DNA from: a virus
Virus record (IMG/VR): IMGVR_UViG_3300042884_000649
Coordinates: 1 to 32,160 of that record
Reading direction: 5' to 3' (one strand)
DNA length: 32,160 nt
The translations under genes were made by a program, and so were the position numbers. Below are positions 4,404 through 32,160 of this stretch, in pieces. Position 1 is the stretch's first letter. Each line of letters starts with the position of its first letter. The notes under the pieces are model-generated. The model did not search any database. It was not told the DNA's origin and was given only the letters and a program-made list of their open reading frames with translations.

Positions 4404-4655
4404 ATGAATCCATACCAACAGAAGCCGAACACAGGCAACCTTTTTAAAAACAAAAACAAAAAGACTCCGAACCAGCCAGACATGGATGGCACCTACATGA
4501 ACGAGAACGGAGTCATTCGTCGCATTGCTGCATGGACCAAGGAAGGCAAGAATGGACGCTTCCTGTCCTTTGTTATGAGTGACATGGACCAGCCGCGAAG
4601 CACCGAGACTCCAGTTCCACCTCCAACAGCTAACGAGGACGGTCTTCCCTTCTAA
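4404..4655 (+). CDS. short protein with SSB-like acidic tail
   Basis: An 83-residue protein. The N-terminal part (NTGNLFKNKNKKTPNQPDMD) and the middle (RRIAAWTKEGKNGRFLSFVM) resemble small phage and plasmid DUF736-like proteins. A Pro/Thr-rich linker leads to a C-terminal NEDGLPF. An acidic tail ending in Pro-Phe is the hallmark of single-stranded DNA-binding proteins, through which they recruit replication and repair partners. The protein is too short for a full OB fold of normal SSB size. I infer a replication-associated, possibly ssDNA-binding role. It is sandwiched between the DnaA-like gene (4-base gap) and terL (1-base gap), so the three are co-transcribed. Confidence 0.65.
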   Translation: MNPYQQKPNTGNLFKNKNKKTPNQPDMDGTYMNENGVIRRIAAWTKEGKNGRFLSFVMSDMDQPRSTETPVPPPTANEDGLPF

Positions 4656-4656
4656 G

Positions 4657-5958
4657 ATGGCAAAGATTGACTTTCTCCCGAAGCAGCTCGAATGCTTCCA
4701 AGCACTCACTGTCGACTCCTCGGTCGAGTGGGTGCTTTTTGGGGGAGGTCGAGGTGGTGCAAAGTCTTTCACTGGATCCGTCTGGCAAATCTGGCGACGG
4801 TTGAAGTATCCGGGCACTCGTGGACTAATCGGTCGCTCGAAGCTCGACACGCTTAAAAAGACTACCCTCAAGACGTTCTTCGAGGTGTGCGGCCTTTACG
4901 GTCTGCGCATGGACATCGACATCTTTTTCAATGCCCAGTCAAACGTCATTACCTTTTCGAACGGCTCCGAGATATTGCTCAAGGACCTGTTCGCTTACCC
5001 ATCCGACCCAGAGTTTCAACAGTTGCAGGGTCTTGAGCTCACGGATGCTTGGGTGGATGAGGCTGCGCAGGTCTCACGGCGTGCCATTGAAGTCTTGAGC
5101 TCCTGCTTTCGCTACCGGATGAAAGACTTCGACCTCAAACCGAAGATGCTCCTGACCTGTAATCCACATAAAGGCTGGCTTTACCATGAGTTCTATCTGC
5201 CTTGGCGAGATGGCAAGATGGGCCACAAGCGTGCGTTCATCCAGTCCCTTGCCTCCGAGAATCCTCACCTGCCTGCCAGTTATCTCGATACCTTAGAAGA
5301 TCTGCACGAGATTGACCGCCAGCGCCTCAAATACGGAATCTGGGAGTATGATGAAACCGCCGACGGTCTGTTCGGTTACGATGACCTTTCTCATGCCTTC
5401 CGGGATCAAGCTCTGACCGGTGAGATGTACCTGACCTGCGACGTCGCTCGACTTGGAAAGGACAGGACGGTTATAGCGGTCTGGCGTGGTTTGCAGTGCC
5501 TCGAGATTCATGAACTCAGAAAGCAGAGGGTTGACGAGGTAGTTCGAGCCATCCGAGAGCTGCAGGGACGCCACCAAGTTCAGATTCGAAACGTCATAGC
5601 CGATGCCGACGGTGTTGGCGGAGGTCTTTGCGATGTGCTCCGGTGTCGGGAATTCATGAACGGCTCGCGAGCGGTGCACAGTGACAAGTTCGTACACCTC
5701 AAGGCGGAGTGCTATTATAAGCTGGCAGAGCTCATCGAAGCTCGAATCGTTGTCCTGCCCATCTCGCACCGGGAAACAATCACGCGTGAGCTGGACATGA
5801 TTCGAAGGAAGCGACCGGAAGCCGACGGGAAATTGTCGGTCTCATCCAAGGAGGAGATTAGCCGCCAGCATGGTGTCTCGCCTGACTACGCCGACGCTTT
5901 GATGATGCGCATGTATTTTGAACTTCGACCGAACTACGGAAAGTATAGTTACGGATAA
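4657..5958 (+). CDS. terL: terminase large subunit
   Basis: A 433-residue packaging motor that cuts and pumps phage DNA into proheads. The ATPase half shows a Walker A variant GGGRGGAKS at 29-37 and a Walker B strand with WVDEAAQ near 128-134; an SxxTCNPH segment (LLTCNPHKGW) is the coupling motif. The nuclease half has the expected acidic residues in TCDVARLGKDRT, IADADGVGGG and SPDYADALMM. Full length for the family. ATG at 4657 starts one base after the previous stop; a longer in-frame extension to 4579 lies inside the previous gene and is rejected. It is the last gene of the rightward unit and lies opposite in strand to the small-subunit candidate at 31003-31350, an unusual separation. 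Confidence 0.97.
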   Translation: MAKIDFLPKQLECFQALTVDSSVEWVLFGGGRGGAKSFTGSVWQIWRRLKYPGTRGLIGRSKLDTLKKTTLKTFFEVCGLYGLRMDIDIFFNAQSNVITFSNGSEILLKDLFAYPSDPEFQQLQGLELTDAWVDEAAQVSRRAIEVLSSCFRYRMKDFDLKPKMLLTCNPHKGWLYHEFYLPWRDGKMGHKRAFIQSLASENPHLPASYLDTLEDLHEIDRQRLKYGIWEYDETADGLFGYDDLSHAFRDQALTGEMYLTCDVARLGKDRTVIAVWRGLQCLEIHELRKQRVDEVVRAIRELQGRHQVQIRNVIADADGVGGGLCDVLRCREFMNGSRAVHSDKFVHLKAECYYKLAELIEARIVVLPISHRETITRELDMIRRKRPEADGKLSVSSKEEISRQHGVSPDYADALMMRMYFELRPNYGKYSYG

Positions 5959-18292: not shown

Positions 18293-18922
18293 TTAATTCT
18301 TGTTTTGTAGGTTGTATTCAATGCGTTCTTGCATGGTCATGCGGTGGAACGGCTTAACACTTGGGTTTGATTGCTTTTGGTTTCGAGAAAGATTCACCTC
18401 ATTGCTCTTCTCCTTTACAGAAGGAGCTGCGGCGCTTGACTTAATCTCAGAGAGTTCAGTCTTTACAGCGCTGAGCTCAGTGGATTTATTCATGTTATCA
18501 GCCTCAGACTTTGCAAGTTTGCTCAGCAACTCTTGGTTCTGGCCTTCCAAAGCGGCCACACGTGAGCTCAAGCTCTCGATTGTGGTGATTAAGTCAGCAG
18601 TTGACATCTCCTCTTCGACTTCAACTTCGACTTCGACCTCTTTGATTTCTGCAATCTTAGAATCTTCGCCGACGATGATCATGCGACCATCTTCGAGAGT
18701 GTACTCACCTGCCATAAGTGGGGTAGAGGTACCGCTTTCATCTTTTGTGTATACGTCGACACCCATTGTCCATTCCGGAGCGCTGGTGAAAATCACCGTG
18801 CCGTCGGCCAGCATACCTTCAATCTCAAGTGCCACCTCTTCTTCTTCGAGGAATATCTTCTTGGGGTCGATGCTAAACTGATGGAAGATGTCGCGAACTT
18901 TTTGTGCAATTGTTCCCTTCAT
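18293..18922 (-). CDS. capsid scaffolding protein candidate
   Basis: A 209-residue protein. The N-terminal half is beta-rich (IEGMLADGTVIFTSAPEWTM), then an acidic Glu-Val run (EVEVEVEVEEE, about 97-107), a coiled coil of about 60 residues (LITTIESLSSRVAALEGQNQ) and a flexible basic C-terminus (SNPSVKPFHRMTMQERIEYN). Acidic and coiled-coil middle with a short basic C-terminal helix is the hallmark of scaffolds that bind the capsid and are removed by the protease. Located between the protease and the capsid genes. Confidence 0.82.
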   Translation of the reverse strand: MKGTIAQKVRDIFHQFSIDPKKIFLEEEEVALEIEGMLADGTVIFTSAPEWTMGVDVYTKDESGTSTPLMAGEYTLEDGRMIIVGEDSKIAEIKEVEVEVEVEEEMSTADLITTIESLSSRVAALEGQNQELLSKLAKSEADNMNKSTELSAVKTELSEIKSSAAAPSVKEKSNEVNLSRNQKQSNPSVKPFHRMTMQERIEYNLQNKN

Positions 18923-18991: not shown

Positions 18992-19570
18992 TTATTCACT
19001 CAGCGCTTCCATAAGGGCTTTAATGAAAAGGTCGTCAGTCTGATCACTTAGCTCCGTTACCATGTGGTCAAAGATGCCCTCAATCGAGAAGCCTTTCACC
19101 TTGCCAAGTTTGACCTCGTTCCATAGCTCGTCGTTCTGGACATAGCTGCCGACAAGCCATGTGCCCACCGGGACGTCAATGCCCAAGGCAACACTCTTGT
19201 CCTGCTCGCTTTCCTTATACCAAGTTTCGACAACCGTACATCCGGTGACCGACATGCGGTGCTCCAGCGTGTGGTTGTGGTGGAGGTTCTTTAGCATGAA
19301 CTGGTGCGCACACTTGTACACGGTTTCCTTATCGAAGTAGATGTAGAACTCCTCGCCTGTCTGTTTGTCGATGCGCAGGATGTATTTCTCCGGGATGAGT
19401 GCGGGACCATAAAGCATCCGTCGCTCCTCGTTGATGGCGCTGAGTTTAATCTCACTCAAGGCTACCCAGTTGGTTTCGATTGCGGGGAACTCGACGAGGC
19501 TGATTGCCTGCACGCCGAGGCGCATCTCATCGTCAACGACGCACTTTAGAACTTTTTTTTTCGTTTCCAT
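18992..19570 (-). CDS. XkdF-like prohead protease
   Basis: A 192-residue protein of the XkdF-type serine protease family. Landmarks: LGVQAISLVEFPAIETNWVA (near 18-37), YGPALIPEKYILRID, VYKCAHQFMLKNLHHNHTLE with conserved His, VTGCTVVETWYKES and LGKVKGFSIEGIF at the end. It would trim scaffold and capsid during head maturation. Position directly upstream of scaffold and capsid supports this. Unlike many relatives, it lacks a C-terminal Cys/His-type extension; a similar one is instead attached to the portal. ATG at 19570. Confidence 0.88.
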   Translation of the reverse strand: METKKKVLKCVVDDEMRLGVQAISLVEFPAIETNWVALSEIKLSAINEERRMLYGPALIPEKYILRIDKQTGEEFYIYFDKETVYKCAHQFMLKNLHHNHTLEHRMSVTGCTVVETWYKESEQDKSVALGIDVPVGTWLVGSYVQNDELWNEVKLGKVKGFSIEGIFDHMVTELSDQTDDLFIKALMEALSE

Positions 19571-31002: not shown

Positions 31003-31350
31003 TTATATGTTCCCTATGATTTCAATGATGGGTGCTCCTTCGGCACCGGTTATCTCCTGCCGCTCGATGTACCCTCGGTTCTTTCCTTGGGTCTTTAAGA
31101 AGAAGATTGTCGCGGCGACGTTGCCTTCTTTGATCAGCTTATGAAGCTGGGCCTCGGCAAAGTCAATGGTCACTTCTTTAAGGCTCGAGACCTTAGCCTT
31201 GTACTCCTCGTCGGTCTGCATCCAGTTGTAATGGGTGTCCCGGTGGATGCCAGTGTTGTGTGCAGCGACGGTAACGACGCCGAGAGCCTTTTCGAGGTTC
31301 TCAAGCATCGTCTTTTTGGTTGTCGAATTGTCGGGCAGGACTTTCGCCAT
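31003..31350 (-). CDS. terminase small subunit candidate
   Basis: A 115-residue helix-turn-helix protein. Residues about 10-50 (TKKTMLENLEKALGVVTVAA, then HRDTHYNWMQTDEEYK) form a homeodomain-like DNA-binding unit, and 60-90 (IDFAEAQLHKLIKEGNVAAT, IFFLKTQGKNRGY) the oligomerisation helices of the kind seen in phage small terminases (phBC6A51-like). It would recognise the packaging site. It lies at the start of the late region, but terL is about 5.5 kb away across the join and on the other strand. Confidence 0.78.
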   Translation of the reverse strand: MAKVLPDNSTTKKTMLENLEKALGVVTVAAHNTGIHRDTHYNWMQTDEEYKAKVSSLKEVTIDFAEAQLHKLIKEGNVAATIFFLKTQGKNRGYIERQEITGAEGAPIIEIIGNI

Positions 31351-31360
31351 GATTCATGAC

Positions 31361-31591
31361 CTAAATAATCTTTTTACTTAACAAGTGGTCAACAATGTCG
31401 TCGACAGATTTTCTTGTTTTTACAATCAAAGAGTTTAGAGTGGAGTCATTTAATTTATTGGTGCCCAGCTTTAGTGTTGTTAAAGCCATCTCCAAGGCTT
31501 GTAGGTTTCTCGTAACTTCACGGTCTGCCGCAAGGTTGATCTGCTCGACCTTCTTAGAAAGCTCGGTTATAAGTTGACGTGTGGTTTTCAT
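31361..31591 (-). CDS. small helical paralog, MKTTRQ type (76 aa)
   Basis: A 76-residue protein, MKTTRQLITELSKKVEQINL at the start. The ATG at 31591 lies 4 bases after the stop of the gene at 31596; an in-frame extension to 31639 would run into that gene and is rejected. The first 22 residues share the layout of the other cluster members (Met-Lys, two helical turns, then E-I/Q-x-L-A). The rest is helical and amphipathic (LQALEMALTTLKLGTNKLND; SVDDIVDHLLSKK). Unknown function, probably a coiled-coil oligomer. Confidence 0.68.
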   Translation of the reverse strand: MKTTRQLITELSKKVEQINLAADREVTRNLQALEMALTTLKLGTNKLNDSTLNSLIVKTRKSVDDIVDHLLSKKII

Positions 31592-31595
31592 GGTA

Positions 31596-31850
31596 TTATG
31601 GAAGCATGTCGTTAATATCCTGCAAGTCTTGATTGACACGTGTAATATCGTTAACCAAGCCCCAGCTCTTAGGTTTCGCCTTAGCAGCTGCCTGATGTTT
31701 TTTTAATTTGGCTTGCAGGGATTTCATCGTATTTTCAATTTCCTTGAAATTCTCAGCATACTTTATTGCCGGGTCATCTTCTGGTGCGGCGAGCCTAATC
31801 TCTTCGATTTGAGCTGCGATCTTTGCAGCGACTGGGTTGGTGTGTTTCAT
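31596..31850 (-). CDS. small helical paralog, MKHTNP type, divergent C-terminus (84 aa)
   Basis: An 84-residue protein. Codons 1-18 (MKHTNPVAAKIAAQIEEI) and the leader are identical at the DNA level to those of the gene at 31855-32091, then the sequence changes abruptly to RLAAPEDDPAIKYAENFKEI, a Lys-rich coiled coil (NTMKSLQAKLKKHQAAAKAK) and NDITRVNQDLQDINDMLP. AAAGGAG lies 9 bases upstream of the ATG. Starts 4 bases after the upstream stop. Unknown function. Confidence 0.72.
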   Translation of the reverse strand: MKHTNPVAAKIAAQIEEIRLAAPEDDPAIKYAENFKEIENTMKSLQAKLKKHQAAAKAKPKSWGLVNDITRVNQDLQDINDMLP

Positions 31851-31919
31851 GGTGTTATTCTCCTTTATCGATGGCCATAGTGAAGTTACTGATGAATCCC
31901 ATCTTCTTCATGTACTGAC
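31796..31919. repeat. 124-bp direct repeat, copy A (copy B at 32037-32160)
   Basis: Every base of 31796-31919 matches 32037-32160, a spacing of 241 bases. It covers the end of one paralog, the 4-base spacer and the first 18-19 codons of the next. The match runs to the window's right edge, so the true repeat may be longer. Confidence 0.95.
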
Positions 31920-32091
31920 ATAAAAAGTACACAGCCTCAAAGTTACCTTTAAATCCATAGTATTTGTTAATGGACTTGATAATGCTTTGAATGCGTTGTT
32001 CTTGCTCTCCAAGATTGACTTCCGCTTTTGCAAGGTTAATCTCTTCGATTTGAGCTGCGATCTTTGCAGCGACTGGGTTGGTGTGTTTCAT
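31855..32091 (-). CDS. small helical paralog, MKHTNP type (78 aa)
   Basis: A 78-residue protein: the shared N-terminal 18 residues, then NLAKAEVNLGEQEQRIQSII, KSINKYYGFKGNFEAVYFLC and MKKMGFISNFTMAIDKGE. AAAGGAG lies 9 bases before the ATG. Its upstream neighbour, cut by the window edge, has the same last 20 residues, so the gene is probably present in at least two tandem, nearly identical copies. Unknown function. Confidence 0.72.
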   Translation of the reverse strand: MKHTNPVAAKIAAQIEEINLAKAEVNLGEQEQRIQSIIKSINKYYGFKGNFEAVYFLCQYMKKMGFISNFTMAIDKGE

Positions 32092-32160
32092 GGTGTTATT
32101 CTCCTTTATCGATGGCCATAGTGAAGTTACTGATGAATCCCATCTTCTTCATGTACTGAC
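32037..32160. repeat. 124-bp direct repeat, copy B
   Basis: Second copy of the repeat at 31796-31919, cut by the right edge of the window. The first 61 bases are also present at 62-122, making three copies of that part. Confidence 0.95.
32096..32160 (-). CDS. small paralog, 3' part only (enters from right edge)
   Basis: Sixty-five bases encode the C-terminal QYMKKMGFISNFTMAIDKGE and stop of another copy of the 78-residue protein, identical to 31855-31919. Its upstream part is outside the window; the gene fragment at 1-116 is the natural partner if the molecule is circular. Confidence 0.65.
   Translation of the reverse strand, partial: QYMKKMGFISNFTMAIDKGE

Follow-up and report, generated by a model that had tools for sequence, protein, structure and literature searches.

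The window, i.e. the whole 32,160 bp stretch of IMG/VR record IMGVR_UViG_3300042884_000649 analysed here, carries an array of small minus-strand genes between a ParB-N/N6_N4 DNA methyltransferase gene on the upstream side (980-2167, −) and the terminase small subunit gene on the downstream side (31003-31350, −; PHROG 309, E=1.3e-6). Next to the latter lies Z (31361-31591, −; 76 aa), which consists of the leader MKTTRQLITELSKKVEQINLA and a predicted helical cargo; the same leader precedes unrelated cargo in two relatives (G001 and G004). Then come Y (31596-31850, −; 84 aa), with the leader MKHTNPVAAKIAAQIEEIRLA and a cargo modelled as a two-helix hairpin, and X (31855-32091, −; 78 aa), which has the leader of Y, another cargo and an orthologue in G001. 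On the far side of the contig join, a 265-aa protein is made of three modules, not of a single leader-like internal module as the sequence-only reading had it. Module 1 (residues 1-89; 656-922, −) has the leader MKTKQEVAELL and a NVNKIWDFIESRPFYNKEYMPKF domain that is also present in a T4-like phage. Module 2 (residues 90-179; 386-655, −) starts with the internal leader SKTKTELVTVLSS, and its domain is a separate 85-aa gene in G006. Module 3 (residues 180-265; 128-385, −), with the leader MKTNKEIVALLSEQVSEIKLA and a predicted helical cargo, is a separate gene in G007. The leader-like repeats of this protein begin at nt 922, 655 and 385. That modules 2 and 3 stand alone in relatives indicates that modules fuse in frame and split. 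All ORF coordinates first given, those of the four small genes and of the 265-aa protein, are correct.

The fourth small ORF, at the join, is a leader gene, yet it is not a further paralog as had been thought. It is a second copy of X (X') in two pieces, a 3′ end cut by the contig end (32096-32160, −; identical to 31855-31919) and a 5′ part cut by the contig start (1-116, −; identical to 31976-32091). The first 122 bp of the window equal 31976-32097 and its last 124 bp equal the block ending at 31919. Each end of the contig thus reaches 122-124 bp into a repeat, and the record lacks the 56 bp that would correspond to 31920-31975. Near-equal overlaps at both ends are the usual trace of a k-mer (de Bruijn) assembler stopping at a tandem repeat. 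Because the overlaps fit such a break, and the common leader of X and Y is by itself shorter than these overlaps, the tandem copy is probably real: X is probably present in two or more tandem copies across the contig break, and a chimeric join at X' retains a small probability. With both ends (1-122 and 32037-32160) inside the repeat, it is possible that the record covers practically the whole of a circular or permuted genome and that the X duplication is its sole break.

The array recurs in seven related IMG/VR phage contigs, for which the 265-aa protein and the terminase small subunit served as queries; together with the window this makes 39 modules in eight genomes. In the window and in all seven relatives it occupies the slot between the methyltransferase gene and the terminase small subunit, where it had first been placed, with two to six small ORFs per contig. 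It is absent from slightly more distant phages, e.g. L016-L018 and L021-L026. The array is a clade-restricted, fast-changing block within a conserved setting. The flanking gene at 980-2167 likewise has a modular build: its ParB-like N-terminus reappears almost unchanged in L016 (3174-4373) and L017 (5793-6992), there followed by a different methyltransferase C-terminus, and similar N-termini stand before other bodies at more distant loci, e.g. L027 and L032. The large terminase gene (4579-5958, +) is oriented opposite to the small one (31003-31350, −), and about 5 kb separate the two across the contig join.

Conserved leaders and exchanged cargos

A single leader family opens all array modules; its pattern is M[KR]TxxE[IL]xxLLS, with xxVxEIxLA often coming next. 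A 12-residue profile was built from the array leaders, with T4 left out of the training, and evaluated by leaving out one genome at a time. Scores of array ORFs run from +8.6 to +30, against −8.7 to +4.1 for the top scorer among the 22-55 other ORFs of each genome; the pattern is thus not due to chance. Among 1416 other phage ORFs none reaches 4.2, and none reaches the score of T4 IPI. The exact leader string matched no other virus, and a search with the degenerate pattern found, outside the known clade, no comparable array sharing a leader on different bodies. In another phage type (L133, L171) a tandem run of 117-aa paralogues starting M[KR]TK[QR]EIExFL is observed; these are alike well past the N-terminus and so resemble ordinary duplicates. 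Leader pairs with unrelated cargo differ mainly at synonymous sites, with a pN/pS of 0.24 over 44 non-independent pairs, and the peptide is therefore selected and kept as protein, not just as DNA. The leaders are under purifying selection.

When the 39 modules are split into leader and cargo and the cargos are grouped by phmmer (E<=0.01), ten families without detectable mutual similarity are obtained, four of which are found behind at least two leader subtypes. The cargo of Y follows MKHTNPVAAKIAAQIEEI in the window and an MKTxKEIVALLSQQVNLA-type leader (MKTxKEIVALLSQQV) in G002 and G004; a helical cargo ending YIWD, YLWD or YQW occurs after several leader subtypes. Ungapped DNA comparisons anchored at the ATG locate the boundary. 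Z and its G001 counterpart show 100/93/80/73% identity across the first 60 nt and 13-47% afterwards. The first genes of G000 and G001 are identical over 90 bp upstream, share 87/73% over 30 nt of leader and then 13-40%. The converse case is found between G004 and G006, where one cargo family with 47-87% DNA identity stands behind different leaders. DNA identity is high through the leader and at background from the leader's end. In relatives, the leader is thus joined to many kinds of C-terminal body, and one and the same body stands behind different leaders, which bears out the cassette-type diversification proposed from the sequence alone. That the locus is a modular array of leader-plus-cargo cassettes can be held with high confidence.

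The first 55 coding nt (codon 18 plus 1 nt) and a stretch of 34 nt or more before the ATG are identical in X and Y; beyond, identity falls to chance level, just as had been reported. The event behind this pair had been taken for duplication with C-terminal replacement. A tandem duplication is likely, but the repeat structure suggests that the leader of Y was swapped and not its C-terminus: Y carries the leader of X, and both X and Y have the end of an X copy upstream. This arrangement would be explained most simply by an unequal recombination between homologous leaders, duplicating the unit of X body plus next leader and passing the X leader to Y.

The cargos have no relatives among 50,697 phage records and no informative Pfam or PHROG match, and none has a known function. 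Neither a cultured phage carrying these cargos nor a related solved structure was found, and a host search with the terminase in GTDB genomes gave weak MAG hits only. An AlphaFold2 model of Y (mean pLDDT 75), indicative only, places helices at residues 6-20, 27-56 and 60-82, i.e. a leader helix, a break at RLAAPED and a two-helix hairpin body. This hairpin is too simple a shape for a fold search to be informative, and the model of the 265-aa protein was discarded as too poor to use (mean pLDDT 49).

Comparison with head proteins of T4 and other phages

The sequence-only reading knew of no described family that matches. However, the internal head proteins of phage T4 work alike. Their leaders, capsid-targeting sequences of 10-19 residues with proven targeting, bring even foreign proteins into the head and have been proposed to let T4-like phages vary their internal head cargo; one of the proteins, IPI, is an inhibitor of a type IV restriction enzyme (PMC9026906). 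As in the array, IPI, IPII and IPIII carry a short shared N-terminal leader (MKTYQEFIAEA...) on otherwise unrelated small cargos, and the cargo differs between related phages (PMC9026906). When the array-leader profile is run over 118 T4 proteins, IPIII, IPII and IPI rank 1, 2 and 4. Without the MKT start, which carries part of the likeness, they rank 1, 5 and 8, a result matched by 18 of 2000 column-permuted profiles (~0.9%). Because the comparison began from a resemblance noticed by eye, we grade it as only moderate evidence, which would point to analogy and not to homology. T4 gp61.1 (L128 18966-19130), which starts MKTFKEFIKED, also scores high and may itself be head-targeted.

The differences from T4 are also clear. 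The array is one contiguous block upstream of the terminase in a phage of about 32 kb, its leaders are often longer (with xxVxEIxLA), its modules can be fused in frame, and packaging and cleavage are predictions here. The presumed processing enzyme in the window is a prohead protease of the XkdF type (PF14550, E=5.3e-15; 18992-19570, −), which matches the head maturation protease PHROGs 3017, 34096 and 33677. As this is not of the T4 gp21 type, we do not class the array as a member of the T4 family. Of the T4 cleavage consensus (L/I)xE, a VxE or IxE tripeptide is seen before IxLA in many leaders but not in all (VEQ in Z). Between the protease and the major capsid protein lies a probable scaffold (18293-18922, −), recognised by its position and coiled-coil character, which we presume to be the docking partner of the leaders. 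An ExxLA motif common to leaders, scaffold and protease was dropped as evidence; it is short and variable (VQLG in the scaffolds of some relatives) and could be chance.

A second connection is provided by the cargo domain of module 1, which recurs in a T4-like phage (L008/L116; E=6e-21), where it lies within the variable central region of a protein encoded after the portal gene. In L116 this protein adjoins small genes that have a leader of their own. Such genes are found in three uncultivated T4-like phages (L116, L120, L121), where the leader MKPFxFxKYIxNNPLLKE, usually ending LLKE, is attached to different bodies between the portal and the prohead protease. The more complete L120 shows the order portal, 283-aa gene, counterpart of the domain-bearing protein, leader gene, two genes, head maturation protease, acidic scaffold-like protein and major head protein. 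These loci resemble the array in placing one leader on different bodies. They differ from it in phage group, gene position and protease type (PHROG 207 in the T4-like phage), and their leader does not resemble that of the window. A cargo domain common to two phage groups, each with its own tag and one of them in the prohead-core interval, fits a cargo of the head.

A common N-terminus is also known from the giant phages SPN3US and phiKZ, whose inner head paralogues, e.g. gp53 and gp54, have 15 identical N-terminal residues and are head ejection proteins processed by the prohead protease (PMC5694885). Unlike the array leaders, their propeptides mostly exceed 100 residues, and the accessible text of that study describes no comparable small-gene array (PMC5694885). 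A literature search found nothing on XkdF cleavage specificity or on capsid-targeting sequences in small phages.

Candidate role in the phage head and alternatives

Taken together, these comparisons, along with the presence of a prohead protease and a probable scaffold and the break after the leader helix in the Y model, suggest that the array may encode internal head cargo proteins whose leader would act as a capsid-targeting sequence loading the prohead, a reading that we give an even chance of being right. Each protein would start with a helical leader of 12-21 residues that docks on the scaffold, and would thereby be built into the prohead; the XkdF-type protease may then cut off the leader, and the cargo would exit with the DNA at infection. 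There its task could be to oppose host defences or to subvert the host, as with IPI of T4. Packaging, processing, ejection and this final role we infer, while the common leader, the unrelated cargos, their shuffling, the protein-level constraint on the leader and the presence of the protease and a probable scaffold are seen directly. The shared leader would double as recombination homology, by which cargos are duplicated, swapped, lost and fused while the tag is kept. Counting against this role, a leader inside a fused protein would come to lie at an N-terminus only through an internal start or cleavage, the protease is of the XkdF and not of the gp21 type, and the leaders have no demonstrated cleavage site. 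The proposal, made from the window, of a localisation tag with a variable effector stands as the best reading on circumstantial grounds, namely the T4 leader likeness and the module-1 recurrence.

In its full form, which we put forward tentatively, the reading describes a compact cargo-loading system: small XkdF-protease phages with recombining leader-tagged cassettes would change their head cocktail and exchange cargo domains with differently tagged T4-like phages. The T4 kind of internal protein is known; such an array in a phage of about 32 kb with an XkdF-type protease appears to be new within what was searched. If true, head-packaged, tag-addressed cargo would reach beyond T4-like and giant phages to phages of about 32 kb, ten uncharacterised protein families would be candidates for a role in anti-restriction or takeover during the first minutes of infection, and a minimal tag for loading proteins into small phage heads would be at hand. 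The array also shows a common tag serving as recombination homology for cargo exchange.

The strongest alternative is an island of small intracellular accessory proteins, e.g. for anti-defence, in which the leader would be an oligomerisation or partner-binding helix acting in the infected cell. The leader is predicted to be helical, the array adjoins a DNA methyltransferase, and small, varied, clade-restricted genes are the typical content of such islands. We consider it less likely than the head-cargo reading, since it predicts neither the likeness to T4 internal-protein leaders nor that a cargo domain should turn up again between portal and protease in T4-like phages. Far less probable, and largely refuted, are ordinary tandem duplicates that diverged end to end with a merely better conserved N-terminus. 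The 14 helical modules that make up the largest cargo cluster show weak relatedness throughout, and helical members can be aligned end to end at low identity. Against this, the cargo families differ in length and character, one cargo stands behind different leaders, DNA identity stops abruptly at the leader boundary, the members do not all align end to end, and the leader is not confined to one fixed protein. The least probable reading, that the leader is kept for DNA or translation reasons (as a hotspot of recombination, or as a common translation-initiation region through which any body can be expressed) and has no protein function, would account for the shared start-codon surroundings and first codons and for breakpoints at the leader, but it is weakened by leader differences that are mostly synonymous per site (pS 0.57, pN 0.14) and by leader subtypes that differ in DNA while keeping the same residue pattern over at least 12 residues.
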